Positions 46,928 to 63,195 of a DNA stretch of 64,000 bases are shown here, one piece after another. The notes beneath the pieces were generated by a model that ran no database searches, was not told the DNA's origin, and saw nothing but the letters and a program-made list of their open reading frames with translations. Source of the stretch: Zeaxanthinibacter sp. PT1 (lineage in GTDB: Bacteria > Bacteroidota > Bacteroidia > Flavobacteriales > Flavobacteriaceae); the NCBI RefSeq assembly GCF_028464225.1, contig NZ_JAQPCN010000003.1:124001-188000 (forward strand). The letters run 5' to 3'. A program made the position numbers and the translations under genes. The stretch's first letter is position 1. Every line of letters begins with the position of its first letter.

Positions 46928-46961
46928 GGAATGACCGTTTTTGCATGAGCAGTGTCATTCC
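46928..46961. promoter_or_regulatory. Inverted repeat GGAATGAC-N18-GTCATTCC
   Basis: Perfect 8-base arms 18 bases apart, 46 bp before the TauE start. The arms are the same half-site (ATGAC/GTCAT) found in the operators of the island to the right, but the spacing differs, so this may be an unrelated regulator site or a weak RNA hairpin. Confidence 0.35.
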
Positions 46962-47006
46962 ACACCCACCGGTAGATAGATAGTTTTAACACCTATTGCT
47001 AGCTGT

Positions 47007-47744
47007 ATGGATTTACAGGATTTGCCCATTTTTGTTATTCTGGCCATTCTGGCCGAAGTCATCGGTACGATCGGGGGATTCGGTTCTTCCGTTTTTTTTG
47101 TACCTATGGCCAGTTATTTTATGGCATTCAAAACGGTCCTGGGGTTAACAGCATTATTTCATCTTAGCAGTAATTTTTCCAAAATTGTTTTATTCAGAAA
47201 AGGATTTGATAAGAACCTTGTACTGTACCTGGGAATTCCTGCAGTATTTTTTGTCATAGCCGGCAGTCTGCTGAGCAGGTATGTTAAGGGGGAAATACTG
47301 AACTTAGCTTTGGGGATTTTCCTGATCCTTTTCAGCTTATTGTTCCTGATTAAAAAGGACCTGGAGATTAGTCCGACTAAGAAAAACGCCTTCGCAGGTG
47401 GAGTTTTCTCTGGTTTTATTGCAGGATTACTGGGAACCGGTGGTGCGATCAGGGGCGCTACCCTTTCGGCTTATAATTTAAAGAAGGATAAATTCATAGC
47501 TACCTCGGCCATAATTGACATGGGGGTAGATCTGAGCAGAAGCGTTGTGTATACCACGAGTGGTTATATTGGTTGGAGCGAGCTTTACCTGGTGCCTATT
47601 CTTTTTTTGGTGGGGGTTGCAGGAACCTATATTGGGAAGCGTCTGCTGGTAGGGATCAGTCAGCAACTTTTTAAGAAGATCGTCTTGTTGCTCTTATTTG
47701 GCATTGGTGTTTCTACCCTAGTACTTGCATCTGCCCGTTACTAA
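47007..47744 (+). CDS. TauE/SafE-family membrane transporter
   Basis: 245 residues with about eight membrane helices. Motifs typical of TauE/SafE: FGSSVFFVPMASYFM and FSGFIAGLLGTGGAIRGATLSAYNL. The family exports sulfite or sulfur-containing organic anions; the substrate is not set here. Its 3-prime end overlaps the convergent helical protein gene by 4 bp. Confidence 0.85.
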   Translation: MDLQDLPIFVILAILAEVIGTIGGFGSSVFFVPMASYFMAFKTVLGLTALFHLSSNFSKIVLFRKGFDKNLVLYLGIPAVFFVIAGSLLSRYVKGEILNLALGIFLILFSLLFLIKKDLEISPTKKNAFAGGVFSGFIAGLLGTGGAIRGATLSAYNLKKDKFIATSAIIDMGVDLSRSVVYTTSGYIGWSELYLVPILFLVGVAGTYIGKRLLVGISQQLFKKIVLLLLFGIGVSTLVLASARY

Positions 47745-48193
47745 TCCCTTGATATGATTGCGACATCTTTTTCAGTGTCAAGAATAGTTTCTGTATTTGA
47801 AAAAATTTCTTTCCGGCAATTCCGATAACTGTGTACGAATGCTGTAATGTCTTTCCCTAAAGCGGTATGTATATCGGTCAGCCGAGCAGAAGCTTTTAGT
47901 GTATCTTTTTCCACATATCGTCCCAGGTCCATTACGTGGGTACTCACTCGATGGATAAGTTCTTCGCACATCGTCCTGGTTTGATACAGCTTACGTTCCA
48001 TGGTCTCTAATAAATGCTGGTTATCTTCCTTGACGATCCAAATACTGTAGCTGTTGATTATATGGTGTAAGTGGCGAAGTTCTTCACGATAAAATTCCAG
48101 GTCGGATTTCCAATGATTTGCCAGGATGTAGCACTTTTTCCAATTAGGTCTTTTAGAAGATCCCTGTAGGTTGTTGGTTTCTGCTGTAATCAT
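47741..48193 (-). CDS. Helical protein of an unnamed W-x5-F family, member A
   Basis: 150 residues, all helical, no signal. It has the motif W28-x5-F34-x2-E37-E38 (HWKSDLEFYREEL), found with identical spacing in the proteins at 58293 and 58799. The family function is unknown. Its promoter is the minus-strand half of a symmetric divergent promoter: TACTTTTA (48215-48222) lies 29.5 bp from the centre of the operator at 48244-48259, which places it in the stress regulon. The predicted leader is about 17 nt. Confidence 0.75.
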   Translation of the reverse strand: MITAETNNLQGSSKRPNWKKCYILANHWKSDLEFYREELRHLHHIINSYSIWIVKEDNQHLLETMERKLYQTRTMCEELIHRVSTHVMDLGRYVEKDTLKASARLTDIHTALGKDITAFVHSYRNCRKEIFSNTETILDTEKDVAIISRD

Positions 48194-48243: not shown

Positions 48244-48259
48244 AATGACAATCGTCATT
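48244..48259. promoter_or_regulatory. Crp/Fnr-type operator 1, symmetric divergent promoter
   Basis: A perfect palindrome AATGAC-AATC-GTCATT centred at 48251.5. A -7 box TACTTTTA on the minus strand (48222 down to 48215) and TAGTTTAG on the plus strand (48281-48288) lie 29.5 bp from the centre on each side. It would serve the W-x5-F gene A and the first Usp operon from one site. Confidence 0.75.
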
Positions 48260-48306: not shown

Positions 48307-49140
48307 ATGAAGAATATTCTCTACGCCACGGATTGTTCAAAGCACGCAGAACCAGCGATGCGCTATATCTATAAGTTATGCGAGATACTGGGAGCAAAAC
48401 TCACCGTACTCAATGTTTATCACTTTGAACAGTTACAGGCGAAAGCCAGGATGAGTGATGAACCGCTGGTACTCTCCCCTTATCATGAACGAATGGAAAT
48501 TCTAAAAAATTATTGTAGTAGATACCTCAGCATTGGGTCACCCAAGGTTGAGCTCAACCTGGATGTAGTGAACAACTTGTCGGTTTCTCAGGGTATCCTG
48601 GAACGGGCCAAGGAACTACAACCCGACCTACTGGTGGTAGGGATAAAAGATGAACACTCTGAAAGAGGATTATTGGCAGAAAATATAGCACATGCCTTAT
48701 TAGAAAAATCCGAATGCCCGGTGCTCCTGGTTCCTAATTCCAAACGTCATAAAAAGATCAAGAAGATCATTTATGCGACGGATTTTGAAATGAAAGACCT
48801 GGAAGCCCTGAAGTTTATACTCCCGGTTGCTAAAGCGTACCGGGCTTCAGTGGTTATAATCCATGTTCCGGTAGAAGGAGAGTATACGAGTGCAGAGCAA
48901 ATGCAGTGGTTCCAGGAATTACTGGATCAGGAAATAGCCTATGACGATCTCTCATTTATGATGCTTTATCCGGGTAAGATAATCAACAACCTGAAGGAAT
49001 ATGTAGAAACCAATGCGGTAGACCTTGTCGTAATGCTGGAACGAAAGGGCAAAGGAGTGATCCGGAGTCTCTTTCATAAAGACCGTGTGAAGACCATGGG
49101 CAAGAATACCTCCACTCCGGTATTGGGATTCATCTCCTGA
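48307..49140 (+). CDS. Universal stress protein, tandem domain (Usp1)
   Basis: 277 residues with two Usp domains. The first (about 1-140) opens NILYATDCSKHAEPAMRYIY and ends CPVLLVP, but lacks the G-2x-G-9x-G(S/T) ATP motif, so it is probably not an ATP binder. The second opens KKIIYATDFEMKDLEALKFI and is also degenerate. It is the first gene of an operon with Usp2, from operator 1. Confidence 0.88.
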   Translation: MKNILYATDCSKHAEPAMRYIYKLCEILGAKLTVLNVYHFEQLQAKARMSDEPLVLSPYHERMEILKNYCSRYLSIGSPKVELNLDVVNNLSVSQGILERAKELQPDLLVVGIKDEHSERGLLAENIAHALLEKSECPVLLVPNSKRHKKIKKIIYATDFEMKDLEALKFILPVAKAYRASVVIIHVPVEGEYTSAEQMQWFQELLDQEIAYDDLSFMMLYPGKIINNLKEYVETNAVDLVVMLERKGKGVIRSLFHKDRVKTMGKNTSTPVLGFIS

Positions 49141-49180
49141 TCTTATATATTAAACTAAGACCATTTAAAATTATAGACTT

Positions 49181-50035
49181 ATGAACCCTGATGGAGTAAT
49201 GAAAAGAATCCTTGTACCGGTTGATTTTTCTCCGCATTCTGAGTTTGCAATAGAGGTCGCAGCTACCCTTGCCAAAGATCACAGTAGTGAACTTTACTTA
49301 TTCCATATGCTGGGACTGGCGCAATCCGTGTTGTACCAGGATTATTCGCAGAAGGAGGCAGAGGCAGAATACTATATGAAAATCGCCAGGAAGAAATTTA
49401 AGGTGATCCTAGATAACCCTCAGCTTAAAGGAATCGAAGTAAAAGTCATTTTACAGAATTACAAGCTTTTTCAAGAGATAAACAACGTGGTACAGGAAAA
49501 CGCCATAGACTTAATTGTTATGGGATCTCACGGAACCTCGGGAGTAGGGGAAATATTTGTGGGTTCTAATACTGAAAAGGTGGTGCGGTCCATTGAAGTA
49601 CCGGTGTTGGTGATAAAAGAACGTGTTCATGACTTTAACCCGAAAGTGGTGGTACTGGCCATCGATTATAAAAAAGAGCAATTAGAGGTCTATAAAAGAG
49701 CGGTACAATGGTTTTTAGCATGGGGCTGCCGTATATGCCTTATACATGTTAACCTACCTAACATGAGTTATACAAGTACAGCCCGGATGAGAGAAATAGC
49801 TGCGGAATTTATGCAACAGGCCCATCCCGAGAAGATACCCGAGCAGATAGACCAAATCTTCATTTCAGATTATTCCCTGGAGCAGGGCCTCTACTACCAG
49901 GCCGGGGAGGAGGATGCAGATGTCATTGGGGTCCTAACCCATGGAAGGAAAGGATTATCTCATTTCTTCCTGGGTAGTGTAGGGGAAGACCTGGTCAACC
50001 ATGCGCCTATCCCGGTTATGACATTTAAGATGTGA
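49181..50035 (+). CDS. Universal stress protein, tandem domain (Usp2)
   Basis: 284 residues with two Usp domains. The first has a full ATP motif GSHGTSGVGEIFVGS. The second has LTHGRKGLSHFFLGS, nearly intact but with the first Gly replaced by Leu. This is the most canonical member of the island. A start at 49199 (MKRILVPVDFS) is equally possible. It is 40 bp after Usp1 with no promoter signal between. The 3-prime end overlaps the convergent TerB-like gene by 11 bp. Confidence 0.9.
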   Translation: MNPDGVMKRILVPVDFSPHSEFAIEVAATLAKDHSSELYLFHMLGLAQSVLYQDYSQKEAEAEYYMKIARKKFKVILDNPQLKGIEVKVILQNYKLFQEINNVVQENAIDLIVMGSHGTSGVGEIFVGSNTEKVVRSIEVPVLVIKERVHDFNPKVVVLAIDYKKEQLEVYKRAVQWFLAWGCRICLIHVNLPNMSYTSTARMREIAAEFMQQAHPEKIPEQIDQIFISDYSLEQGLYYQAGEEDADVIGVLTHGRKGLSHFFLGSVGEDLVNHAPIPVMTFKM

Positions 50036-50429
50036 ATAACTGGTCTAATTTGGCCAGTATAATGAGTTCTGATTTATTCTTTCCCGCAAATGAGCCAGCA
50101 ATATCCTTTGCCGTTTTACGAGTTAACTCTTTAATTTTTGGGCTGAAAAGGCTTTGGTTTTCCTTATAGAATGTAGAAAATTCCTTAAAATGATCATCAG
50201 GTTCCAGCTCTTCGGACATCAACCAATCAAAGACAATTTCTATCTGGTAGGCGGCATCGGTCCCAGTTTCATCAAGCCCTTCATCTACGTCCAGCCAATA
50301 TCTCCTTACGTCTTTCAACAAGGCATCTACTTCTTTTGGATGAATTCTTTTGTCGGCGTTTGCGACGGCATAGAACAACCTACCTAAGTGCTGGTAAAAT
50401 TCTGAAATGATTTTTTCGCTTTGTTCCAT
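50025..50429 (-). CDS. TerB-like protein
   Basis: 134 residues, helical. The first 60 residues contain YAVANADKRIHPKEVDALLKDV, similar to the acidic, possibly metal-binding start of the TerB-like family linked to tellurite and stress response. The match is partial, so I name it only TerB-like. It is 29 bp after the gene at 50459 and probably shares its promoter (operator 2). Confidence 0.55.
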   Translation of the reverse strand: MEQSEKIISEFYQHLGRLFYAVANADKRIHPKEVDALLKDVRRYWLDVDEGLDETGTDAAYQIEIVFDWLMSEELEPDDHFKEFSTFYKENQSLFSPKIKELTRKTAKDIAGSFAGKNKSELIILAKLDQLFTS

Positions 50430-50765: not shown

Positions 50766-50779
50766 ATGATCGGAGTCAT
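50766..50779 (-). promoter_or_regulatory. Crp/Fnr-type operator 2
   Basis: ATGAT-CGGA-GTCAT centred at 50772.5. On the minus strand a -7-like box TACCTTGA starts at 50743, exactly 29.5 bp away, and the start codon of the small HMA-like gene is about 15 nt after the predicted start. No matching box is seen on the plus side toward the kinase gene. Confidence 0.65.
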
Positions 50780-50829: not shown

Positions 50830-52068
50830 ATGTACATTTATGGTATGCGGGCATTTGAACAGAACGATACGGTCTTCAGAATGCTTTCTGAAGCAATATC
50901 AGAAGGCATTGTTGTGGTGAATGAAAAGCAGGATATCGTCGCCACCAATAAAAGGGCAGATCGACTTTTCCGGTATGATGTAGGTGAACTGGAAGGCAAA
51001 CCGCTGGCGGTGATTATCCCGCCAAAATATCACGGGGTTCACAAAGACCATGTTAAAGGCTTTTACAAAAAGAACCAGCAAAAAAGGATGGCTGAAGGTC
51101 GCAGTTTATATGGATTGCGAAAAACAGGTGAACAGTTCCCGTTAGAAGTTGGTCTTAATCCGTTTACCCTTCCTGAAGGAAATTATGTTCTTGCCCTGGT
51201 CTATGACATGACTGAATTACGGGATAAGGACAGCCAGATCATGGAATTAAACGCCCACCTGGAAGAGAAGATTCAACATCGCACCCAGGAATTAAGTAAT
51301 ACGGTTGCAGAACTTCAAAAAGAGATCAAGCGCAGGAAACAGGCAGAGGCACTCATCAAAACTGCTTTACAGCGAGAAAAAGAACTGAACGAACTAAAGA
51401 CTAAGTTTCTTTCGTTGGTATCACATGAATTTAAAACTCCATTAAGCGGAATCATGACCTCGGCAACGCTGGTGGGTAAGTATAAAGAGAGTGAGCAGCA
51501 GGAGAAAAGAGAGAAGCATTTACAGACTATTTTTGGGGAAGTAAAAAGGCTTAATGGTATCCTGAACGATTTTCTCTCTATAGAACGTTTAGACCAGGGG
51601 AAAGAAATTTACAGGAAAGGACATTTCTCCCTGAGTAAGGTCATTAACGAGGTGGTATATAATACCAATATGATTCTTAAAACCGGGCAGAGTATCAATT
51701 TGCCCCAGAATATTGATGATGTTTCCATTTTCCAGGATGAAAAGATCTTAAAACTGGCATTGTCTAACCTGCTTTATAATGCAGTCAAATATTCCCCCGA
51801 AGATTCAGAGATCGACCTGGAGGTTGAATTTGATAACCAAATGATCTTGTTCCATGTAAAGGATCACGGGATCGGGATACCGGAAAAGGATCAGAAACAT
51901 ATTTTTGACCGGTATTTCAGGGCAGAAAATGTATTGTTAACACAAGGTACGGGAATAGGTCTGAATATTGTCCGTGGCCATCTGAAGAACCTTGGTGGAT
52001 CAATCAATTTTAAAAGTGAACTGAATGTGGGAACGACGTTTACCATGGCGCTTCCGATTGAAGGATAA
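50830..52068 (+). CDS. PAS-domain sensor histidine kinase, FixL-like
   Basis: 412 residues. A PAS domain (about 12-130), a coiled-coil linker (about 132-190), HisKA with SLVSHEFKTPLSG (His199 is the phosphate site) and an HATPase domain (NLLYNAVKYSPE, DHGIGIPEKDQ, GTGIGLNIV). The PAS domain aligns without gaps to the FixL oxygen-sensor region: His71 sits at the heme-ligand position and Arg91 twenty residues later, as in FixL H200/R220. These residues also occur in some heme-free PAS domains, so heme binding is only a hypothesis. There is no membrane segment. A start at 50845 is possible. Next gene is its likely partner regulator. Confidence 0.85.
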   Translation: MYIYGMRAFEQNDTVFRMLSEAISEGIVVVNEKQDIVATNKRADRLFRYDVGELEGKPLAVIIPPKYHGVHKDHVKGFYKKNQQKRMAEGRSLYGLRKTGEQFPLEVGLNPFTLPEGNYVLALVYDMTELRDKDSQIMELNAHLEEKIQHRTQELSNTVAELQKEIKRRKQAEALIKTALQREKELNELKTKFLSLVSHEFKTPLSGIMTSATLVGKYKESEQQEKREKHLQTIFGEVKRLNGILNDFLSIERLDQGKEIYRKGHFSLSKVINEVVYNTNMILKTGQSINLPQNIDDVSIFQDEKILKLALSNLLYNAVKYSPEDSEIDLEVEFDNQMILFHVKDHGIGIPEKDQKHIFDRYFRAENVLLTQGTGIGLNIVRGHLKNLGGSINFKSELNVGTTFTMALPIEG

Positions 52069-52136
52069 ATTTTTACAGATTTGGAAATTAACATGTAAAT
52101 TGAAAGTAGAATAAGCATTTGATAAACCAGCCTCCA

Positions 52137-53183
52137 ATGAAAAAGATCCTATTAATTGAAGACGACCCGGTGCTAAGGGAAACCACGGCCGAATTATTGG
52201 AACTCTCCAATTATTCGGTGATTACAGCTGCCAATGGAAAAAAAGGAATAGATGCAGCCATGAATGAAACTCCGGATGTAATCCTGTGTGACATTATGAT
52301 GCCCGAAATAGATGGATATGGCGTTCTTAAAGCCTTATCTGAAGAGCCGAGAACCAGGAGGATTCCCTTCGTTTTCCTGACCGCCAAAACGGAACGTAGT
52401 GATGTGCGTAAGGGAATGGAGCTAGGTGCAGACGACTACCTGACAAAACCCTTTGAAGAATCTGAGCTGATAGGAGCAATTGAAAGTCGGTTAGCCAAAA
52501 TGGCGATCCTTAAGGAATTAGACAGGACCGGGGAGTCAGATCCCGGGAACAAAAAACCCAGGAACCTGCATGAACTGAAAAACCTGATGGATGATGAGGG
52601 AAAAGAATTCAGTTTTTCTCCGGGTGAAAGTATATATGTACAAGGGGATAATTCTAATACCGTGTATCTGGTACTTAAAGGCAGTGTGAAGACCTATGTG
52701 CTTGATGAGCAGGGTAAAGAACTGATCACCGGCTTATTTAAGGCAGATGATATTTTCGGACTGATCAGTTTCAGTCAGAATATCCCTTATAAAGATTATG
52801 CTACAGCCCTGGAAGAAACGGAATTGGTGGGATTGGCCAAAGAAACCATCAAAGAGGTACTGGTGGGCGATCCTGATCTGGCCCTGAATTTTATGCAGTA
52901 CCTCTCTGACTCATTGACTGAAGCAAAAAAACAATTGCTACAGATGGCCTATGGCTCTGTAAGAAAAAAAACAGCGGCCACATTGTTACGCTTTGCCGAA
53001 AAAATCCCCGGAGATATATCAGGGGACATACACGTACTGAGGAGCGACCTGGCAAGTGTCGCTGGGATTGCAACCGAAACCCTCATACGCACACTTTCCG
53101 GTTTTAAAGACGAGGGACTGATAGAGATAAAGAACAGGGACATTCGTATCCTTGATCGAGAGGCGCTGGAAAGAATGAGTTGA
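52137..53183 (+). CDS. Response regulator fused to a Crp/Fnr-type DNA-binding protein
   Basis: 348 residues in an unusual order: REC domain (1-120, acceptor Asp52, Thr82, Lys104), cyclic-nucleotide-type sensor domain (about 150-260), Crp helix-turn-helix (about 280-345). The sensor lacks the cAMP-phosphate Arg/Ser, so cAMP binding is unlikely. The recognition helix reads TETLIRTLSGFK, which keeps the Fnr Glu and Arg that read the TGA core but has Ile in place of the Fnr Ser. That fits the island operators, which have ATGA or CTGA in place of TTGA. The gene follows the kinase by 68 bp. Confidence 0.88.
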   Translation: MKKILLIEDDPVLRETTAELLELSNYSVITAANGKKGIDAAMNETPDVILCDIMMPEIDGYGVLKALSEEPRTRRIPFVFLTAKTERSDVRKGMELGADDYLTKPFEESELIGAIESRLAKMAILKELDRTGESDPGNKKPRNLHELKNLMDDEGKEFSFSPGESIYVQGDNSNTVYLVLKGSVKTYVLDEQGKELITGLFKADDIFGLISFSQNIPYKDYATALEETELVGLAKETIKEVLVGDPDLALNFMQYLSDSLTEAKKQLLQMAYGSVRKKTAATLLRFAEKIPGDISGDIHVLRSDLASVAGIATETLIRTLSGFKDEGLIEIKNRDIRILDREALERMS

Positions 53184-53215: not shown

Positions 53216-53229
53216 CTGATCTTCATCAT
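53216..53229 (+). promoter_or_regulatory. Crp/Fnr-type operator 3
   Basis: CTGAT-CTTC-ATCAT centred at 53222.5. An exact -7 box TAATTTTG (53252-53259) starts 29.5 bp from the centre. Predicted transcription start about 53264, 24 nt before the Usp3 ATG. Confidence 0.8.
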
Positions 53230-53287: not shown

Positions 53288-54127
53288 ATGATCCGAATAT
53301 TGATCCCGACAGATTTCTCTGAGAACGCTTGGAATGCCATTAAGTATGGCATGGAACTCCTTAAGGGGCGCGAGTGCGTTATATACCTTTCCTATATTCA
53401 GGTAAAACCCGTATTTATTGCAGCTGAAAGCACTATTACGGCTAATACACCTGAGCTACGGGACCAAATCCTCAAAGAACGAAAACGCAACCTGGAGGAT
53501 CTAATTCTGCGTATCAGGGACCTGGGGTTAGACGGAAATCATACCCTGGCAACCCTGGCAAACACCGGACTATTTGTAGACGGAATCAAATCACAGATCG
53601 AGGACTATAAAATAGACCTGATCATTATGGGTACACGGGGAGCTTCCGGGCTCAAGAAAATTACCATTGGCAGTAATACCGGCAATGTAATAACCCGGGT
53701 AAAATGTCCTGTTCTGGTGGTGCCTGAAAATGCCGTCTATGAAGAGCTAAAAGAAATCGTTTTTCCTACCGATTACCAGATCAACTATGACCTTAAGGTT
53801 TTAGAAATCTTAGTAAGCCTGTTAAAAAAATACCGGGCTAATCTCAGGATTCTTCATATTGCAACCCAATCCAAAGATCTGACGTCTGAACAGGAAAAGC
53901 ACAAGGAATTGCTGCATGAGTACCTGAATGGAGCATCCCATACTTTCCATACGCTGAGAGGAACCTCAGTAGAAACCTCACTTCAATGTTTTATTGAAAG
54001 CAGGGATATTCAATTGGCTGTCATGGTAGCTAAGAACTTAAATTTCCTACAGCGAATCCTATTCCGTCCTATTGTAGAAAAATTCAGTTACCACACCGAA
54101 ATTCCATTCCTGGTGCTACATGAATAA
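53288..54127 (+). CDS. Universal stress protein, tandem domain (Usp3)
   Basis: 279 residues. The first Usp domain opens IRILIPTDFSENAWNAIKYG and carries the full ATP motif GTRGASGLKKITIGS. The second domain opens KEIVFPTDYQINYDLKVLEI and has no ATP motif, the common form in this island. Probably binds ATP in domain one. It has its own operator-driven promoter and is not followed closely by another gene. Confidence 0.9.
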   Translation: MIRILIPTDFSENAWNAIKYGMELLKGRECVIYLSYIQVKPVFIAAESTITANTPELRDQILKERKRNLEDLILRIRDLGLDGNHTLATLANTGLFVDGIKSQIEDYKIDLIIMGTRGASGLKKITIGSNTGNVITRVKCPVLVVPENAVYEELKEIVFPTDYQINYDLKVLEILVSLLKKYRANLRILHIATQSKDLTSEQEKHKELLHEYLNGASHTFHTLRGTSVETSLQCFIESRDIQLAVMVAKNLNFLQRILFRPIVEKFSYHTEIPFLVLHE

Positions 54128-54169
54128 ATCCTTTCTCTTTAGAATTTTTTCTTTAAAAATTGTCCCTAG

Positions 54170-54183
54170 CTGACTGATATCAT
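54170..54183 (+). promoter_or_regulatory. Crp/Fnr-type operator 4
   Basis: CTGAC-TGAT-ATCAT centred at 54176.5. A -7 box TACATTTA (54206-54213) starts 29.5 bp from the centre. The predicted start (54218) is 17 nt before Usp4. Confidence 0.8.
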
Positions 54184-54234
54184 AAAATTTAGATACAGAG
54201 AAGAATACATTTATGGACCGTTGAAAATGGAATC

Positions 54235-55080
54235 ATGAGAAAAGTAATAATTCCCACCGATTTTTCAGAAAATGCATTCAATGCATTAAAGTGCGCATGC
54301 CAGGTATTTAAGTACGAGAGAAGTGATTTTTACCTCGTGCACGCCTACGCTGATGAGGTATATCAAAAGTATTCCGGTAAGGATCGGGAAGCTTTTGAAA
54401 AGGGAAAGCATATGGTGGAAAATGCGGCAGCTTCGGGCTTGGAAAAAATAGAAGCCAAAATGCATTCTTATGCTCCCAATCCCAGGCATAAGATCTATAG
54501 GCAAACCGAATTTGGAACATTGACCGATGTGATCAATGACTTAGTTATTGACATTAATGCGGATATAGTGGTAATGGGCACCCGTGGCGAAACTGACGAT
54601 CGTAATAAAACATTCGGTAGCAATACGGTGCAGGTATTTAAATATGTGCATTGCCCGGTTCTTGCCATCCCGGCAAACTATAGCTATGCGCAACCTAAGC
54701 AGATCCTGTTCCCTACAGATTATATGATCCCTTACAAGCGAAGAGAATTAAAATTACTCTGTAATATGATCGCGTCTTTCCGGTCCACGGTACATGTGCT
54801 ATATATAAATCCTGTTTCTAAGCTCTCTATGCGACAAGAGGATAACCGGGAGTTCTTAAGATGCGGACTTGGGGAACCCCAGATGTTCTTTGAGACTTCA
54901 GGTCTGAAAGACAAGACCGCCGCGATCCTCAAGGCAATCGAGCAGCATAACATTCAGATGCTGGTTATGGTAAATAGTCGCAATTCGCACCTGGAAGATA
55001 TGTTGTACCCTTCAACTGTAGATATTCTTGCATTAAAGCTCGAAATCCCATTTATGGTGCTTCAGAACCTAAGTCGCTAA
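54235..55080 (+). CDS. Universal stress protein, tandem domain (Usp4)
   Basis: 281 residues. The first domain opens RKVIIPTDFSENAFNALKCA and has the ATP motif GTRGETDDRNKTFGS. The second opens KQILFPTDYMIPYKRRELKL and is degenerate. It is followed by Usp5 after 18 bp, with no promoter between, so they form one operon from operator 4. Confidence 0.9.
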   Translation: MRKVIIPTDFSENAFNALKCACQVFKYERSDFYLVHAYADEVYQKYSGKDREAFEKGKHMVENAAASGLEKIEAKMHSYAPNPRHKIYRQTEFGTLTDVINDLVIDINADIVVMGTRGETDDRNKTFGSNTVQVFKYVHCPVLAIPANYSYAQPKQILFPTDYMIPYKRRELKLLCNMIASFRSTVHVLYINPVSKLSMRQEDNREFLRCGLGEPQMFFETSGLKDKTAAILKAIEQHNIQMLVMVNSRNSHLEDMLYPSTVDILALKLEIPFMVLQNLSR

Positions 55081-55098
55081 TTCAAAATTTTCCACATC

Positions 55099-55947
55099 AT
55101 GATGAAGATTATTCTACCCACAGACTTTTCCGAAAATTCATTCAATGCTATTCGTTACGCGATAAAATTATTTGAAAATGAAGAGGTGATCTTCTACCTG
55201 ATGCACACCTATACCCCGGCAGTTTACAGACCGGAATATGTATTGGAATTTCCGGGGCAGATAGGTCTGGGAGATGTATTACAGCAACAGGCACAGGAAA
55301 AGCTTAAAGCTGCGGTCGAGAAATTGGAGTCAGAGTTTAATAATCCCCTGCATTCATTTATTCCTCATGAAGCATTTAATACCCTGGTGGCAGAAATCCT
55401 GGAAATGACAGTAAACGAGGGAGCTCATATGGTTATCATGGGAACACAAGGAGCCACAGGTGCCAAGGAGATCTTTCTTGGATCTAATAGTGCACATGTG
55501 GTGAAACGTTCTACTTGCCCGGTAATATTGATTCCGAACGACTTTGAATACGAGCATCTTACGGAAGTGCTGTTTCCCACCGATTTCGAGATTTCCTATG
55601 ACCAACACGAGTTGGCCCCGTTAATCAACTTGGTCAAAATGCACGGTTCAAGTATAGAGGTCCTCCACATTGCCACGGGTTATCCATTAGCACCGGACCA
55701 AAAAGCTCACAAAGAACAACTTGATAGGGTTCTCAAAGAGGTACCTCACCTCTTCCACGAACTTCCACCCTGTGAAATCATAGATGGGATTAACCAGTTC
55801 CAAATAAAGACTAAAGTGAATATGTTGGCCATGATCCGCAATAAGCACACCTTCTTTGAGAGGCTATTTATTGATCCTGTAATTAAAAAACTGGCATTTC
55901 ATATCAAAATCCCTTTTATGGTAATGCCACATACCAACCCCAGATAA
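55099..55947 (+). CDS. Universal stress protein, tandem domain (Usp5)
   Basis: 282 residues. The first domain opens KIILPTDFSENSFNAIRYAI and has the ATP motif GTQGATGAKEIFLGS. The second opens TEVLFPTDFEISYDQHEL and is degenerate. The second residue is also Met, so a start at 55102 is equally likely. Second gene of the operator 4 operon. Confidence 0.9.
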   Translation: MMKIILPTDFSENSFNAIRYAIKLFENEEVIFYLMHTYTPAVYRPEYVLEFPGQIGLGDVLQQQAQEKLKAAVEKLESEFNNPLHSFIPHEAFNTLVAEILEMTVNEGAHMVIMGTQGATGAKEIFLGSNSAHVVKRSTCPVILIPNDFEYEHLTEVLFPTDFEISYDQHELAPLINLVKMHGSSIEVLHIATGYPLAPDQKAHKEQLDRVLKEVPHLFHELPPCEIIDGINQFQIKTKVNMLAMIRNKHTFFERLFIDPVIKKLAFHIKIPFMVMPHTNPR

Positions 55948-55971
55948 CCTTGGCAGAGTTGTAACCGGAGA

Positions 55972-55985
55972 CTGACCAAAATCAT
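55972..55985 (+). promoter_or_regulatory. Crp/Fnr-type operator 5
   Basis: CTGAC-CAAA-ATCAT centred at 55978.5. A -7 box TATTTTTA (56008-56015) starts 29.5 bp from the centre. The predicted start (56020) is 21 nt before Usp6. Confidence 0.8.
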
Positions 55986-56040
55986 TGAACTGCATACAGA
56001 ACGAAGCTATTTTTATATAAACACAAACAAGAGCCTTGCC

Positions 56041-56886
56041 ATGAAAAAACGAATTCTATTACCCACTGATTTTTCTAAGAATGCCCTCAACGCAGCTAGG
56101 TATGCTCTTGATCTTTACCACGAGCACGAATGTGAGTTTTATCTACTTAACGTATATCAACGGGCCTTTTCCACGGCCAATATGAGTGTGCCCGAAGCCG
56201 GTGAACCCGGCTATGAGAGCCAGAGAGAACAATCTGAAGAAGGTCTGCGCAAGTTTGAGAAACAGTTGAGTTTACATGGAGAAAACTCAAAACACAAGGT
56301 AAAACTGATCTCTACATTTAACTCTGTCTATGACGGTGTTAAAGATAGCATTGCTAAGAAGGATATAGACCTGGTAGTTATGGGGACCAAAGGTGTTCGA
56401 GATGTGGAGACCAGTTTATTTGGTACCATTACGGTCAATGTCATGAAACAGCTTCAATCATGCCCTGTTCTCGCAGTGCCGAACAATGTTCGTTTCAGCT
56501 CCCCCAAGACAATTGCCTTTCCTACCGATTATAAAACGGAATTTAAAAGGAGAGAACTCCACTACATGATAGATATAGCCAGGGATTTTGGGTCCTTTAT
56601 CCATATTGTACATATTAAACGTGAAGCCACACTTACCAGGGTACAAGAAAGCAATAAAAAATTATTGGATAGTATCCTGGACGGGCTAGACCATCAATTT
56701 CACGAACTGGAGAAACAACATGTTCACAGGGCAATTGGAAAATTTATAGAAGATAACGATTGTGACCTTGTAGCTTTCACGAACAGGAAGCACGGTTTTT
56801 TAGCTTCAATCTTTGACAAGCCCTTGATAGAAGAAGCGGGCTATCACTACAAGATTCCCATTCTCGCACTTAATGATCACCGCTAA
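56041..56886 (+). CDS. Universal stress protein, tandem domain (Usp6)
   Basis: 281 residues. The first domain opens KRILLPTDFSKNALNAARYA and has the ATP motif GTKGVRDVETSLFGT. The second opens KTIAFPTDYKTEFKRRELHY and is degenerate. First gene of the operator 5 operon with the eRF1-like and MscS genes. Confidence 0.9.
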   Translation: MKKRILLPTDFSKNALNAARYALDLYHEHECEFYLLNVYQRAFSTANMSVPEAGEPGYESQREQSEEGLRKFEKQLSLHGENSKHKVKLISTFNSVYDGVKDSIAKKDIDLVVMGTKGVRDVETSLFGTITVNVMKQLQSCPVLAVPNNVRFSSPKTIAFPTDYKTEFKRRELHYMIDIARDFGSFIHIVHIKREATLTRVQESNKKLLDSILDGLDHQFHELEKQHVHRAIGKFIEDNDCDLVAFTNRKHGFLASIFDKPLIEEAGYHYKIPILALNDHR

Positions 56887-57322: not shown

Positions 57323-58228
57323 TTGATGGATTCCATTAGAGAACTCCTGGCCGACCCTGCTTTTATCAAACTGTTGAAGCTACTTCTATGGATTGGTGTT
57401 ACGGTTGCGGTCGTTACTTTTTTCAGGAGAAGTGCACGGAAACGGATAGAGAACACCGTTTTCAGGTATAAGACTCAGAAACTTATCGAGATCCTGGGAT
57501 ATTTCATGATCATACTGTTGGTAATTTTATTTGTCACCGTAGATAATGTTCGGGATTATACCATAATAATAGGTCTGTTTACGGCGGGCCTTACTTTTAC
57601 CCTGCAAGAGCTGATCCTGAGTGTTGCGGGGTCTTTTTATATTTTCGCAGTGCGCGTCTATAAACCGGGAGACCGGATAGAGATCAATGGTATCACCGGG
57701 GATGTGATCGATATAGACAGTATTTATACCACCCTGATGGAGATTGGAGCCTGGGTGAGTACGGACAATTACTCGGGCCGGATTGTTAAAATTAGTAATG
57801 CCTATGTTTTTAAGGGACCAATTCACAACTACTCCCTGGATTTTCCGTTTGTCTGGGACGAACTCAACGTACTGATCACTTACCAATCTGACCTGGAAGA
57901 GGCAAAGAGGCTAGTGCTGCAGGAAGCTAATACGCTCTTGGCTGCGTATACCACTGCGTCTACATCCAAGTGGAAAGAACTTGTAGAGCGATATTACATA
58001 GAAGATGCAGCCTTAGAACCAAATGTAGCAGTTAAATTGACAGATAACTGGATACAACTGAACCTTCGGTATATTACCGATTACAAGAAAAGGAGAAAGA
58101 TGCAACAGGATCTTTTTGAACGTATAGAATCGGTTTTCAAAAGTAAGGGAGAGTCCGTGATCTTCGCTTCATCGACCCTGCAACTCCTGAAAATTCCCGA
58201 AGTGGATGTACGCATGCAATCTTCCTGA
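57323..58228 (+). CDS. MscS-type mechanosensitive ion channel
   Basis: 301 residues. About four membrane helices (about 15-40, 55-75, 83-110) and then the MscS pore-lining and beta domain: TLQELILSVAGSFYIF, PGDRIEINGITGDVIDIDSIYTTLMEI and PNAYVFKGPIHNYS-like NAYVFKGPIHNYS. MscS channels release solutes on membrane tension. Third gene of the operator 5 operon, 20 bp after the eRF1-like gene. Confidence 0.88.
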   Translation: MMDSIRELLADPAFIKLLKLLLWIGVTVAVVTFFRRSARKRIENTVFRYKTQKLIEILGYFMIILLVILFVTVDNVRDYTIIIGLFTAGLTFTLQELILSVAGSFYIFAVRVYKPGDRIEINGITGDVIDIDSIYTTLMEIGAWVSTDNYSGRIVKISNAYVFKGPIHNYSLDFPFVWDELNVLITYQSDLEEAKRLVLQEANTLLAAYTTASTSKWKELVERYYIEDAALEPNVAVKLTDNWIQLNLRYITDYKKRRKMQQDLFERIESVFKSKGESVIFASSTLQLLKIPEVDVRMQSS

Positions 58229-58230
58229 AC

Positions 58231-58244
58231 CTGACCGAAATCAT
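58231..58244 (+). promoter_or_regulatory. Crp/Fnr-type operator 6
   Basis: CTGAC-CGAA-ATCAT centred at 58237.5. A -7 box TAGATTTA (58267-58274) starts 29.5 bp from the centre. The predicted start (58279) is 14 nt before the W-x5-F gene B. Confidence 0.8.
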
Positions 58245-58292: not shown

Positions 58293-58709
58293 ATGGAATC
58301 ATACTCAAGCCCGGCATTATCCACAAAATTGGACCACCTGACCCAAGAATCAAGGACATGGATTACTAAGATCCGGTTTACTGAAGATGAGCTGTCCTTT
58401 ATTGATCAATTGCTCCATTCCGATGTATTTGAACCCAACACCCCGAATTTATTCGAACGATTGTCAGAATACGGGCAACGTCTTGAGCAAATTTGGAATA
58501 CTAAAGAGGACCTTAAAAAATTGATCGATATACACATGCAAGAGCTCGCGGAACTTATAAAAAGTACGCATCAGCTTGCCAAGGATTCCTCCGTGCCGGG
58601 ACATGAGCAGCTCCAGGCCCAGGTAGAGAAATATTTAACGCTATATGGAGAATTAAAATCGGAGATATTCAACTACGCCGGAGGTATTTTGAAAAAAAGA
58701 AAAGCCTGA
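58293..58709 (+). CDS. Helical protein of an unnamed W-x5-F family, member B
   Basis: 138 residues, all helical with coiled-coil pattern, no signal. The family motif is W23-x5-F29-x2-D32-E33 (TWITKIRFTEDEL). Like member C it ends in a basic LKKRK tail. No named domain recognised. It starts the operator 6 operon; the next gene is 89 bp on. Confidence 0.75.
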   Translation: MESYSSPALSTKLDHLTQESRTWITKIRFTEDELSFIDQLLHSDVFEPNTPNLFERLSEYGQRLEQIWNTKEDLKKLIDIHMQELAELIKSTHQLAKDSSVPGHEQLQAQVEKYLTLYGELKSEIFNYAGGILKKRKA

Positions 58710-58798: not shown

Positions 58799-59236
58799 AT
58801 GAAGAAAAAATCAGTAAAGATACAGGAATGGTTAGACCCTGACTCTCTGCATAACGAGACAAAAATGTGGATTTCTGAGCTCGACTTTATGTGTGACGAG
58901 CAGCGATTTCTGAACGATTTAATTAAAGATTTTACCATTGAGCTTACCCAGACTTCAAATTTTGAAGTAGCAAAGCAAAAAGTTTCGGAGCTTCTATCCA
59001 TAGAGAACGAATTGGTACACTTGAAAGAAAAGGTGCAATTGCACGGGAACCAACTTAAGATCATGACTGATAAGGTTGATCAGTTGGAGATGGAAAGTGC
59101 CTACCTGAAAACCCACAAAAATCTCTCTGATCATTTAAAGGATTATCGCAAACGCTACCAGGAACTCAAGACCCAATTTTTTAAGCTATTAACAGCCCAA
59201 CTGAAAAAAAGAAAAACCAAGAAATTGATGCCATGA
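58799..59236 (+). CDS. Helical protein of an unnamed W-x5-F family, member C
   Basis: 145 residues, helical, with the family motif W24-x5-F30-x2-D33-E34 (MWISELDFMCDEQ) and a coiled coil (about 70-120). The C-terminus QLKKRKTKK is like that of member B. I could find no operator of the regulon in the 89-bp spacer, so it probably belongs to the operator 6 transcript. The stop overlaps the lipoprotein start by ATGA. Confidence 0.75.
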   Translation: MKKKSVKIQEWLDPDSLHNETKMWISELDFMCDEQRFLNDLIKDFTIELTQTSNFEVAKQKVSELLSIENELVHLKEKVQLHGNQLKIMTDKVDQLEMESAYLKTHKNLSDHLKDYRKRYQELKTQFFKLLTAQLKKRKTKKLMP

Positions 59237-59901
59237 AAAAATTTCCGCTAATCATCATCCTATCCCTATTACTATCTGCTTCCGGATGTTCCTCGACCAG
59301 CCTTGTCAGCAGTTGGAAAAACCCGGATATCGTACTATTTGATGCCTACAAAGTACTGGTCGTAGGAATGACACAGAACGAAAGGGCAAGACTCCTGTTT
59401 GAAACTAATATGAGAGATGAGTTTATTAAAAGGGATATTGAAGCCATGCGGAGCTTGGATATTTTTGATGTCGCATTTACGGATTCGGCCAGGTCTGAAG
59501 AAGAATTGGATGAGGTGGAACAGCAATTGCTGGATAAAGATTTTGATGCGATCCTGTTTACCAAGATCATTGGATACGAGAATAAAAGAACTTTTAGGGA
59601 ACAAGTGCTGGACTGGGAAACTTATATGGATGGATTTAAAGAGGATTATAATTCTAATCAAGGTATCTACTTCAACAAAAATTACTACCAGGATTATGAT
59701 GTATATTACGCAGAGACTTCCCTCTATTGTATTTGTGTAGGGAAGGACAGAAAGCTTATCTGGCGGGGAACCATAGAAATTACGGATCCTAAGAACGTTG
59801 GAAAAGTGGTGGACGATTATATTCAACTGCTGGTGTACGCCCTACAGGAACAAGACCTGATAATCAGAAAAAAAACCGAGGATGAAACTACTAGTCTTTA
59901 G
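59233..59901 (+). CDS. DUF4136-like lipoprotein
   Basis: 222 residues with a lipobox (LLSASGC, Cys19), then SLVSSWKNPDIV and a compact alpha-beta region (YKVLVVGMTQNERARLLFETNMRDEFIKRDI). These fit the DUF4136 / CsgG-related outer-membrane-facing lipoproteins of Bacteroidota. The function is unknown. It overlaps member C by 4 bp and the D-lactate dehydrogenase gene by 20 bp, so it is translated in a coupled operon. Confidence 0.65.
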   Translation: MKKFPLIIILSLLLSASGCSSTSLVSSWKNPDIVLFDAYKVLVVGMTQNERARLLFETNMRDEFIKRDIEAMRSLDIFDVAFTDSARSEEELDEVEQQLLDKDFDAILFTKIIGYENKRTFREQVLDWETYMDGFKEDYNSNQGIYFNKNYYQDYDVYYAETSLYCICVGKDRKLIWRGTIEITDPKNVGKVVDDYIQLLVYALQEQDLIIRKKTEDETTSL

Positions 59902-60889
59902 TGCCAAAGAATTTGAAAAGCCATTCTTATATAAGGCCAACCAAGATCGCATCACCATGCATTTTACTGAAATGTCTCTCGATACGCGAACGGCTCAGAA
60001 GGCGGTGGGGTATGACGCTATTTCTATCTTTTCCGGGGATGATGCTTCTCAACTTGTATTGGAAAAACTCCATGATTTAGGCGTTAAGTATATAGCGATC
60101 AGGTCAGCCGGTTACAACAATATACATCTTAAGGCAGCAAAACGTATCGGTCTCAAAGTGGCCAATGTTCCCGATTATTCCCCTCATGCCATAGCAGAAC
60201 ACGCAACAGCCATATTATTGGCATTGGTTCGGAAAATAGTCCGAGCGGACCGGCAGTTGCACCAGGATTATTTTTTGCTGGATGATCTTATGGGTTTTAA
60301 CCTTCACGGTAAAACCATCGGGATATTAGGCACCGGGCGTATTGGTACGGTAATGGCGAAGATCATGAAAGGTTTTGGTTGTGAAGTGCTGGCAACAGAT
60401 CCGCTTCCGGATAATAACATGGTTGAACTTGGGCTGGTAAAATATGTAGAGATTAATGATTTATTCACGGCTTCTGATGTGATCAGTATTCATATTCCAC
60501 TCACCTATGAGAACTATTATTTTATTGACGAAGAGAAGCTGAGTTGGATGAAACCTTCAGCCATACTGGTAAATACGGCCAGGGGTGCCGTTGTGCAGAC
60601 CAATGCGCTGATTGAAGCCTTGGAAAAGGGGCAGATTGCCGGCTATGCCACCGATGTATATGAAAAAGAAAGAGGCTTGTTTTTCAGGGATCATTCCGGC
60701 AATGGAATCAGTGATGAACGTTTTAAGAAGCTACGAAACCTGCCCAATGTGCTAATCACTCCGCACCAGGCATTCGTAACGCAGGAAGCTATAGAGAATA
60801 TAGCTGAAATGACCATAGAAAACCTCTGGGCCTGGGATCAGAATTTACCCTGCAAAAATGAGCTGGGAATAGAAACGATGATGTCATAG
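59882..60889 (+). CDS. D-lactate dehydrogenase
   Basis: 335 residues of the D-2-hydroxyacid dehydrogenase family. NAD motif GILGTGRIGTVMAKI (Gly-rich loop), catalytic Arg in NTARGAVV, Glu in DVYEKERG and His in TPHQAFVT. The YxEAERG-like DVYEKERGLFF points to D-lactate dehydrogenase of the LdhA type, which regenerates NAD from NADH when respiration stops. Last gene of the operator 6 operon, ending convergent with the cls gene. Confidence 0.88.
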   Translation: MKLLVFSAKEFEKPFLYKANQDRITMHFTEMSLDTRTAQKAVGYDAISIFSGDDASQLVLEKLHDLGVKYIAIRSAGYNNIHLKAAKRIGLKVANVPDYSPHAIAEHATAILLALVRKIVRADRQLHQDYFLLDDLMGFNLHGKTIGILGTGRIGTVMAKIMKGFGCEVLATDPLPDNNMVELGLVKYVEINDLFTASDVISIHIPLTYENYYFIDEEKLSWMKPSAILVNTARGAVVQTNALIEALEKGQIAGYATDVYEKERGLFFRDHSGNGISDERFKKLRNLPNVLITPHQAFVTQEAIENIAEMTIENLWAWDQNLPCKNELGIETMMS

Positions 60890-62290
60890 GACAGGGGCAA
60901 AGATTCTCGCGATACCCTCTTTTAGTCGCTGCCTTACCGGTCGCTGTAGTAACATCTCGTAATCCAGTTCCCTGGATTCCCGGCAATCGTGTTCAAAATC
61001 TTTTCGCAGATCCTTACTGAAATCCGCGTCATACACCAGGGCATTAATTTCATAGTTATGCTCAAAACTCCTAGCATCTATATTGGTAGTTCCTATGGTG
61101 GCAATGTCATCATCACATACAATGATCTTACTATGAAGGAATCCCTGGGGGAACATAAATATCCTGATACCTGCTCTGAGCATTGATTCTATGTAAGAAT
61201 GTACGCTCCAGTAAACAAGTCTGCTATCACTTTTCTCAGACATTAAGAGACGGACATCTACACCGCTAAGGGAAGCCACTTGTAACGTTTTCAGAATTTC
61301 CGGAGTAGGTATGATGTAGGGATTAGTGATGTAAATATATTTCCTGGCTGTACTGATCAGGGTTAAGAATACCTGTTCTATATTCGGGTAAATATCATCC
61401 GGTCCACTGTAAACAACCTGTACGTTTTTCCGGGACGATTCCTTTCTCACCTTGAAGGCAGGAGACTTCATTCCCGGTTTTTCACCTGTAACCATGATCC
61501 AATCCATTTCAAAGACCATTGCGAGTTGCCATGCGGCGGGCCCGCTGATCTGCAGGTGCATATCATGCCATAACCCTAAGGGTTCTGACCCTTTCAGATA
61601 CTTATCAGAAATATTTATGCCGCCGGTAAAAGCTATCGCCCCATCAACTACAATGATCTTTCTATGGTTCCGGTAATTGATCGAATCGAGAAATCGCGAA
61701 AATTTAAAAGGTAAGAATGAATAAACCTCCACCCCTATAGATCTTAATTTTTTTCGGTATGCCGAACTGAGTGAATAACTGCCAACCCCATCGTAGATCA
61801 GCCGAACCTGTATTCCTTCCGTTATTTTTTGTTCAAATAACCGCAATAGTCTCTCTGCTAATACGCCTTCTTCAAAGATGTAGTATTGAAGATGGATATA
61901 TGACCTGGCATCCTGCATCGTTTTAAAAATGGCATTAAAGGTCGCTTCCCCGTTTTTTAAATAATGCACTTCGTTTCCCGTTGTGGGAGGGAAGGCACAA
62001 GTATTGTTGATCAGTTGCATTACTTTCAGGTATTTTTCAGAATCACCCGGGAGAGCAGGATCTATATGGGAATGGGGTAGGGCAAGGGTTTCTTTTTTCA
62101 ATTTTGATAAAACATTTTTGCGATGATTTCTTCCCATCATCCAGTAAAATAAAGCCCCACCGACCGGGATAGTAAAAATGGCCAATAGCCAACCGAGGGT
62201 TTTTGCGGGTCTGACACCGTTGATTAATAAGCTGAAAACCAGGAATAGCGCTACCAGGCTATACAGGATGATAATGGAGGCCACTAACAT
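60884..62290 (-). CDS. cls: Cardiolipin synthase
   Basis: 468 residues. Two N-terminal membrane helices (about 5-40), then two phospholipase-D HKD motifs: HRKIIVVDGAIAFTGGIN and HSKIIVCDDDIATIGTTN. The enzyme joins two phosphatidylglycerol molecules to cardiolipin. Operator 7 lies about 49 bp upstream. The 3-prime end overlaps the D-lactate dehydrogenase gene by 6 bp. Confidence 0.9.
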   Translation of the reverse strand: MLVASIIILYSLVALFLVFSLLINGVRPAKTLGWLLAIFTIPVGGALFYWMMGRNHRKNVLSKLKKETLALPHSHIDPALPGDSEKYLKVMQLINNTCAFPPTTGNEVHYLKNGEATFNAIFKTMQDARSYIHLQYYIFEEGVLAERLLRLFEQKITEGIQVRLIYDGVGSYSLSSAYRKKLRSIGVEVYSFLPFKFSRFLDSINYRNHRKIIVVDGAIAFTGGINISDKYLKGSEPLGLWHDMHLQISGPAAWQLAMVFEMDWIMVTGEKPGMKSPAFKVRKESSRKNVQVVYSGPDDIYPNIEQVFLTLISTARKYIYITNPYIIPTPEILKTLQVASLSGVDVRLLMSEKSDSRLVYWSVHSYIESMLRAGIRIFMFPQGFLHSKIIVCDDDIATIGTTNIDARSFEHNYEINALVYDADFSKDLRKDFEHDCRESRELDYEMLLQRPVRQRLKEGIARIFAPVL

Positions 62291-62338: not shown

Positions 62339-62352
62339 ATGACATCTGTCAG
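62339..62352 (-). promoter_or_regulatory. Crp/Fnr-type operator 7
   Basis: ATGAC-ATCT-GTCAG, centred at 62345.5. On the minus strand a -7 box TACCTTTA starts at 62316, 29.5 bp from the centre. The predicted start (62304) is 14 nt before the cls start codon. Confidence 0.8.
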
Positions 62353-62369
62353 TTGTATTATTTTCTATA

Positions 62370-63068
62370 TCAGGTGATATTGAGGGCCATTTCTACCATT
62401 TTGGTATAGGAACGTTCCCGCTCTTCCTGGGATGCGGCCAGGCCAGAAACCAATGAATCCGAAATGGTCAATATGGCTAGCGCCCGTACTCCAAACTTAG
62501 CTGCAAGGGTATAGAGGCCTGCTGCCTCCATTTCTACGCATAGAATACCAAAATCTGCCCATAGTTTGTAATCTTCAGGGTCATCCGGATAGAATTCATC
62601 CGATGTCAAAACGTTTCCGGCCTTTATGGGAATCTTCATTTCCCGGGCATAGAGAGCAGCGTTCATCAATAACTCAAAATTTGCCGTAGGCGAATAATCT
62701 GCATTGATAAACCTGGAGTTATTGATCCCGGATGTCGTAGATGCCGCCATGGCCAGGACCAGGTCCCTTAGCTTAACATCTCTTTGGTAAGAACCAGCCG
62801 TCCCTATCCTTATGATTGTTTTAACCTCAAATTCATTGATTAGTTCATGGTAATAGATCATAGCGGATGGAATACCCATTCCACTTCCCTGGACGGAAAT
62901 AGCTTTACCCTTGTAAGTCCCGGTATATCCTAACATTCCTCTAACCCTGTTGTAGCATACCGCGTTTTCTAGAAAGGTTTTAGCAATCCACTCTGCTCTT
63001 AGGGGATCTCCCGGCATCAGTACGGTAGGAGCAACTGCACCTTTTTCCGCAGCAATATGAACACTCAT
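62370..63068 (-). CDS. deoD: Purine-nucleoside phosphorylase (DeoD type)
   Basis: 232 residues from the start MSVHIAAEKGAVAPTVLMPGDPLRA, the usual DeoD opening. Motifs: GMLGYTGTYKG, GSGMGIPSAMIY, IRIGTAGSYQ (phosphate and ribose site) and VEMEAAGLYTLAA. It splits purine nucleosides with phosphate. The region above it has a weak operator (63182-63195) with a -7-like box, but the predicted leader of about 79 nt is long, so the link to the regulon is tentative. Confidence 0.9.
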   Translation of the reverse strand: MSVHIAAEKGAVAPTVLMPGDPLRAEWIAKTFLENAVCYNRVRGMLGYTGTYKGKAISVQGSGMGIPSAMIYYHELINEFEVKTIIRIGTAGSYQRDVKLRDLVLAMAASTTSGINNSRFINADYSPTANFELLMNAALYAREMKIPIKAGNVLTSDEFYPDDPEDYKLWADFGILCVEMEAAGLYTLAAKFGVRALAILTISDSLVSGLAASQEERERSYTKMVEMALNIT

Positions 63069-63181
63069 TACAAATAATTTTAAAATGCCGGTACAGTAAT
63101 ATTGTTGGCTTGCCCTGGAAATAGAACCGAAGCGCCCGGCACGATTAGAATTCAAGGTATTATTTCTAATCTGCGATATTC

Positions 63182-63195
63182 ATGATTTATCTCAT
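63182..63195 (-). promoter_or_regulatory. Weak Crp/Fnr-type operator 8a
   Basis: ATGAT-TTAT-CTCAT (one mismatch). On the minus strand TACCTTGA starts at 63159, 29.5 bp from the centre, the same box sequence as at operator 2. It would serve deoD. Confidence 0.4.

Follow-up and report, generated by a model that had tools for sequence, protein, structure and literature searches.

The genes considered here lie in a 64,000-nucleotide stretch of the Zeaxanthinibacter sp. PT1 genome, which we call the window throughout. Two intact open reading frames encode a sensor kinase and a response regulator, and they are given below together with two codons of the kinase sensor domain. Residue numbers count from the ORF starts at 50830 and 52119; comparison with orthologues places the likely true starts at ATG 50845 and ATG 52137.

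50830-52068, + strand: soluble sensor histidine kinase of 412 aa with PAS, HisKA and HATPase_c domains (Pfam)
51040-51042, + strand: codon of His71, corresponding to FixL H200, predicted proximal haem ligand; conserved in 97/100 kinases, aligned to FixL without gaps
51100-51102, + strand: codon of Arg91, corresponding to FixL R220, predicted distal arginine contacting O2; conserved in 92/98
52119-53183, + strand: REC-cNMP-HTH_Crp fusion response regulator with Response_reg, cNMP_binding and HTH_Crp_2 domains (Pfam)

The reading frames and their Pfam domains agree with the initial annotation of a PAS kinase beside a protein that joins REC to Crp. That annotation suggested a search for the same architecture next to PAS kinases. 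At E of at most 1e-60, relatives of the regulator were found in 86 of the 199 Flavobacteriaceae genomes, and the collection scan returned them also from Sphingobacteriaceae and a few other Bacteroidota. The kinase adjoins REC-Crp in 105 of 109 loci. The nearest named relative in that collection is Zeaxanthinibacter enoshimensis, whose regulator is 92% identical. The gene that follows the pair usually encodes a universal stress protein (Usp) in Flavobacteriaceae and a D-lactate dehydrogenase in Mucilaginibacter. Winogradskyella psychrotolerans (L093) carries REC-Crp without a neighbouring kinase. We found no description of the kinase/REC-Crp pair in Bacteroidota in the literature searched, which has little to say about how Flavobacteriia and Sphingobacteriia sense oxygen.

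The kinase is composed of a FixL/DosP-type PAS domain (residues ~13-135), a coiled linker, HisKA and HATPase_c, and no membrane-type hydrophobic stretch was detected in it (maximum 19-residue mean 0.78). The proposed correspondence of His71 and Arg91 to FixL H200 and R220 was borne out by a gapless alignment to BjFixL with the same spacing of 20 residues; both residues are present together in 92/98 kinases. When a profile made from the Flavobacteria-only PAS set was run against the PDB, 13 DosP/FixL sequences came out on top (61-79 bits), followed by the haem PAS FG214 (10jx, 57 bits), with LOV domains at 41 bits or less. FixL and DosP again ranked first with a profile that included Sphingobacteria. 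An AF2 model of the PAS domain gave the same picture, the top 19 chains by Z all being haem PAS (FG214, FixL and DosP, Z 14.6-16.9); its mean pLDDT is 76 and it is weak round the haem pocket (46-55 at residues 71-90). Both rankings, by profile and by fold, place the kinase PAS nearer to haem PAS domains than to the other PAS domains in the PDB.

Among the 16 PAS domains of the same genome, a single one scored high against the family profile (185 bits). The runner-up (L162, 60 bits) keeps the His and is missing the Arg. Such an F-helix His without its Arg speaks for an unremarkable two-component system whose kinase has a PAS of no special type, and in which the His/Arg pair would be a coincidence common among PAS domains. 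We consider this very improbable, since both residues are conserved in the family and the profile ranking falls by a large gap before non-haem PAS are reached.

The haem pocket itself differs between the lineages. Sphingobacterial kinases have H200, Y203, R206, I215 and R220 of FixL in 18/18 cases and H214 in 14/18, whereas those of Flavobacteriaceae, the window kinase included, retain only H200 and R220. R206 of FixL is a propionate contact and I215 belongs to the distal pocket. The window kinase has G77 in place of R206, K85 in place of H214 and R86 in place of I215, and the full haem pocket was not found in it. Because the fuller pocket occurs only in the Sphingobacterial orthologues, haem binding is very likely for their PAS domains and likely, though not certain, for that of the window kinase. 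A different input is suggested by the loss of the Arg206 and Ile215 equivalents in Flavobacteriaceae, by position 89 (DosP Met95), which is His in 37/79 of their kinases and Glu in the window, and by the existence of LOV-domain kinases. The pair and its regulon would then be as described here, with the Flavobacteriaceae PAS sensing NO, CO, redox state or a non-haem ligand. This is unlikely, as the best PDB matches in sequence and fold are all haem PAS, His and Arg are kept in the great majority of kinases, and the interchange with a four-Cys FNR described below indicates oxygen.

A few partner kinases lack Arg91 or carry a LOV domain. The LOV signature NCRFLQ was found in 7/106 of them (L085, L097, L113, L010, L012, L015 and L024), and in L085 and L097 the LOV domain sits between the haem-type PAS and HisKA. 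Two of the LOV kinases have their first PAS complete; these retain His71 and have lost Arg91. A combined oxygen and blue-light input is possible for the LOV kinases.

The receiver domain of the regulator has its acidic pocket, with the phospho-acceptor Asp58 in 109/110 relatives and Lys110 and Ser/Thr88 in 110/110. As the initial annotation had claimed, the Crp part has lost the cAMP-binding residues: in an alignment with M. tuberculosis CRP the cyclic-nucleotide pocket is replaced, GE by GL and RT by KD. The Crp part of the window regulator is free of cysteine, and the four FNR cluster cysteines were not found in it. Since both the pocket residues and cysteines are absent, neither cAMP nor Fe-S switching is expected, and phosphorylation would naturally be the switch of REC-Crp. 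The recognition helix reads TETLIR in the window, and the Glu and Arg typical of Fnr (Glu320 and Arg324) are indeed kept in 110/110 relatives. A GerE/LuxR-type HTH was looked for in the regulator with Pfam and none was found; its HTH is HTH_Crp_2. The idea of a shortened Fix cascade therefore stands as far as a FixL-type kinase acting on a REC-Crp protein. It does not stand as a literal joining of FixJ and FixK, because the LuxR-type output is absent and nothing ties the Crp part to FixK over FNR.

TGA-containing operators had been proposed as well, and they proved to be strongly enriched. Upstream of the module genes in related loci we counted 401 TGA-N6-TCA sites against ~50 expected, while other TGA/TCA spacings were near background. 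In the window, 12 of the 23 occurrences fall inside a 15.5-kb island. The directional consensus of the operator is (C/A)TGAYnnnnRTCAT. In 110/348 sites the -7 element of Bacteroidota, TAnnTTTG, begins precisely 22 nt past the 14-mer, against a background of about 0.3 sites expected per offset; within the window, TAnnTT lies at offset 22 for ten sites and at any other offset for two at most. The operator centre is 29 nt upstream of the -7 element, at about -41, and with this spacing the sites are arranged as for a Crp/Fnr activator of class II. We infer that transcription is activated from the following operators:

46945-46958, + strand: operator ATGAGCAGTGTCAT, -7 element TAGTTTTA at 46981-46988, upstream of the TauE/SafE gene
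48245-48258, both directions: operator ATGACAATCGTCAT, towards Usp1 (+, -7 element TAGTTTAG) and a 150-aa gene (-, -7 element TACTTTTA)
50766-50779, - strand: operator ATGACTCCGATCAT, -7 element TACCTTGA, towards an 85/106-aa gene divergent from the kinase
53216-53229, + strand: operator CTGATCTTCATCAT, perfect -7 element TAATTTTG, upstream of Usp3
54170-54183, + strand: operator CTGACTGATATCAT, -7 element TACATTTA, upstream of Usp4/Usp5
55972-55985, + strand: operator CTGACCAAAATCAT, -7 element TATTTTTA, upstream of Usp6, a 134-aa gene and MscS
58231-58244, + strand: operator CTGACCGAAATCAT, -7 element TAGATTTA, followed by a 138-aa, a 145-aa, a 222-aa lipoprotein-like and the D-lactate dehydrogenase gene
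62339-62352, - strand: operator CTGACAGATGTCAT, -7 element TACCTTTA, upstream of a PLD-family (cardiolipin-synthase-like) gene
63182-63195, - strand: operator ATGAGATAAATCAT, -7 element TACCTTGA, towards the nucleoside phosphorylase gene

The outer operator base had been given as A or C, which is correct, and had been explained by Ile in place of the Fnr Ser. We rejected Ile323 as the cause: regulators with Ser323 have A, C or G at the outer bases and also avoid T, which occurs in 7%. Class-II boxes were found at the kinase in 7/99 and at the regulator in 0/112 cases, so that autoregulation was not seen, and since such boxes rarely fit either gene the pair probably does not activate its own transcription. 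The most consistent target is the gene divergent from the kinase, where the composite promoter fits in 39/43 relatives. The whole genome contains 81 boxes versus 33 for the reversed pattern. Genome-wide counts of mTGAYnnnnRTCAk were discarded as a discriminator of REC-Crp presence, as the forward/control ratio differs only mildly (2.35 with REC-Crp versus 1.75 without).

The genes of the predicted regulon in the window, besides those already named, are:

48307-50035, + strand: Usp1 and Usp2 genes (universal stress proteins)
50025-50429, - strand: 134-aa gene divergent from the kinase, the one with the recurrent composite promoter; no Pfam family was found for it
53288-56886, + strand: Usp3-Usp6 genes (universal stress proteins)
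57323-58228, + strand: MscS-type channel gene
59882-60889, + strand: D-lactate dehydrogenase-type 2-hydroxyacid dehydrogenase
60884-62290, - strand: PLD-family phospholipid synthase-like gene
62370-63155, - strand: nucleoside phosphorylase (PNP_UDP_1)

Three small, probably helical proteins recur in Usp islands, here at 47741-48193 (-), 58293-58709 and 58799-59236. Elsewhere in the genome, boxes precede two further Usp genes, and a second operator-rich island (C3:360700-380681, L178) holds genes for Usp, Pta, acetate kinase, a flavin PNPOx-type protein, DUF2267, DUF302, a phosphoribosyltransferase and YtxH. Whether ackA has a box directly upstream of it tells nothing, as this gene is preceded by another one, pta in this genome. 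The regulon was compiled from pattern matches and selected stretches of the genome and is incomplete. Usp, LdhA and AckA-Pta form a low-oxygen survival set in Pseudomonas and Burkholderia (PMC3759415; lxa locus, PMC6127331). The suggestion that the regulated genes fit a low-oxygen or low-energy response is supported by Usp, D-lactate dehydrogenase, MscS and the content of the second island, the one with Pta-AckA.

Boxes of the same kind are still present at 19/30 Usp promoters of genomes without REC-Crp. Several of these genomes encode a 230-aa Crp/Fnr protein directly 5' of the Usp gene. It has four nearly invariant cysteines (29-30/30; loci L247-L276), arranged as CxxC followed by two more, the last of them in the context MEVCFIP, which we take to resemble the region of Cys122 in E. 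coli FNR. Its recognition helix is TATExxIR, with the same Ile as in REC-Crp. This FNR-type regulator was found in 117/199 genomes, and 48 of them also carry REC-Crp, with the two genes within about 1.1 kb of each other in at least nine. Mutual exclusion of the two regulators was considered and rejected, as 48/86 genomes with REC-Crp have both (Fisher p 0.47).

From these patterns, REC-Crp with its kinase and the FNR-type sensor seem able to stand in for each other, and this suggests that both respond to oxygen. Because an FNR with the same helix serves Usp promoters, a single set of operators is probably common to two oxygen chemistries; for the same reason, box conservation alone is no proof of REC-Crp binding. 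The boxed Usp promoters in REC-Crp-less genomes and the identical FNR helix could even mean that the operators belong to the FNR-type regulator and that REC-Crp controls something else. However, the four-Cys FNR was absent from the PT1 genome and from the sister species, yet the boxes there are well formed. Moreover, boxes stand upstream of the gene beside REC-Crp in most loci, and REC-Crp has the same recognition helix, so we regard this explanation as improbable. Chances are about even that the haem-PAS kinase/REC-Crp and the Fe-S FNR converge on one Bacteroidota operator set and swap between genera, with LOV added in some lineages.

Taken as a whole, the data lead us to propose, with a probability of about 0.7, a two-protein oxygen switch in which a haem-PAS kinase phosphorylates REC-Crp for class-II activation of genes for survival of energy shortage. 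Support that does not depend on the reasoning of the initial annotation comes from the conservation of the pair and of His/Arg, the PDB rankings by profile and fold, the spacing of operator and -7 element, the regulon content, and the exchangeable or neighbouring four-Cys FNR with its like helix and boxes. We infer haem binding, phosphotransfer and the oxygen response of the pair from the sequences. The FixL/DosP-type PAS of the soluble kinase would hold haem via His71, and O2 bound to the haem, aided by Arg91, would restrain the kinase. At low oxygen the kinase would autophosphorylate and pass the phosphate to Asp58 of REC-Crp. The phosphorylated dimer would then bind (C/A)TGAYnnnnRTCAT and act as a class-II activator at TAnnTTTG promoters. 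Its putative targets in the window are the Usps, D-lactate dehydrogenase, MscS, TauE/SafE, the PLD-type lipid synthase and the nucleoside phosphorylase, and elsewhere in the genome the island with Pta-AckA, Usps and the flavin protein. The pair would work as FixL-FixJ-FixK minus the middle gene-expression step. REC-Crp would read the boxes of the four-Cys FNR, which many relatives may use instead or additionally.

The proposed switch shares with FixL-FixJ-FixK the H200/R220-type PAS, HisKA/HATPase, a REC partner, a Crp/Fnr output and targets of low-oxygen type. Unlike in that cascade, REC and Crp are one protein, there is neither a LuxR-type FixJ output nor a fixK transcription step, and the predicted targets are Usp and fermentation genes; with just one COX1-family gene in the genome, no cbb3 oxidase stands out as a target of the FixK kind. 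FNR (4Fe-4S, including the four-Cys FNR of Flavobacteriaceae) has the Crp/Fnr fold, the TATExxIR helix and boxes at Usp genes in common with REC-Crp, which however lacks the cluster cysteines and carries at its N-terminus a REC on which a kinase would act. In the PAS profile search DosP/EcDOS shared the first ranks with FixL; it has the same His/Arg spacing, but its output is a phosphodiesterase. Low-oxygen-induced genes linked to Crp/Fnr-type control are also known as the Usp clusters of the low-oxygen-activated locus of B. cenocepacia (PMC6127331) and as LdhA/AckA/Pta in the pyruvate-fermentation set of P. aeruginosa ANR. Both are proteobacterial, and REC-Crp is not described there.

Our verdict is that the pair is a new, widespread form of FixL/FNR-type oxygen control, with haem binding, phosphotransfer and oxygen response as its predicted steps. 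It is a compact module with a precise operator/promoter code, and it provides a natural rewiring experiment, in which identical boxes would be read either by an Fe-S protein that senses directly or by a regulator under the control of a kinase. It also predicts a hypoxia/energy-starvation regulon of Usp and of lactate and acetate fermentation for many genera of sea and soil. When oxygen is low, the pair appears to turn on this block of genes for stress survival and fermentation in many Bacteroidota from marine and soil habitats.
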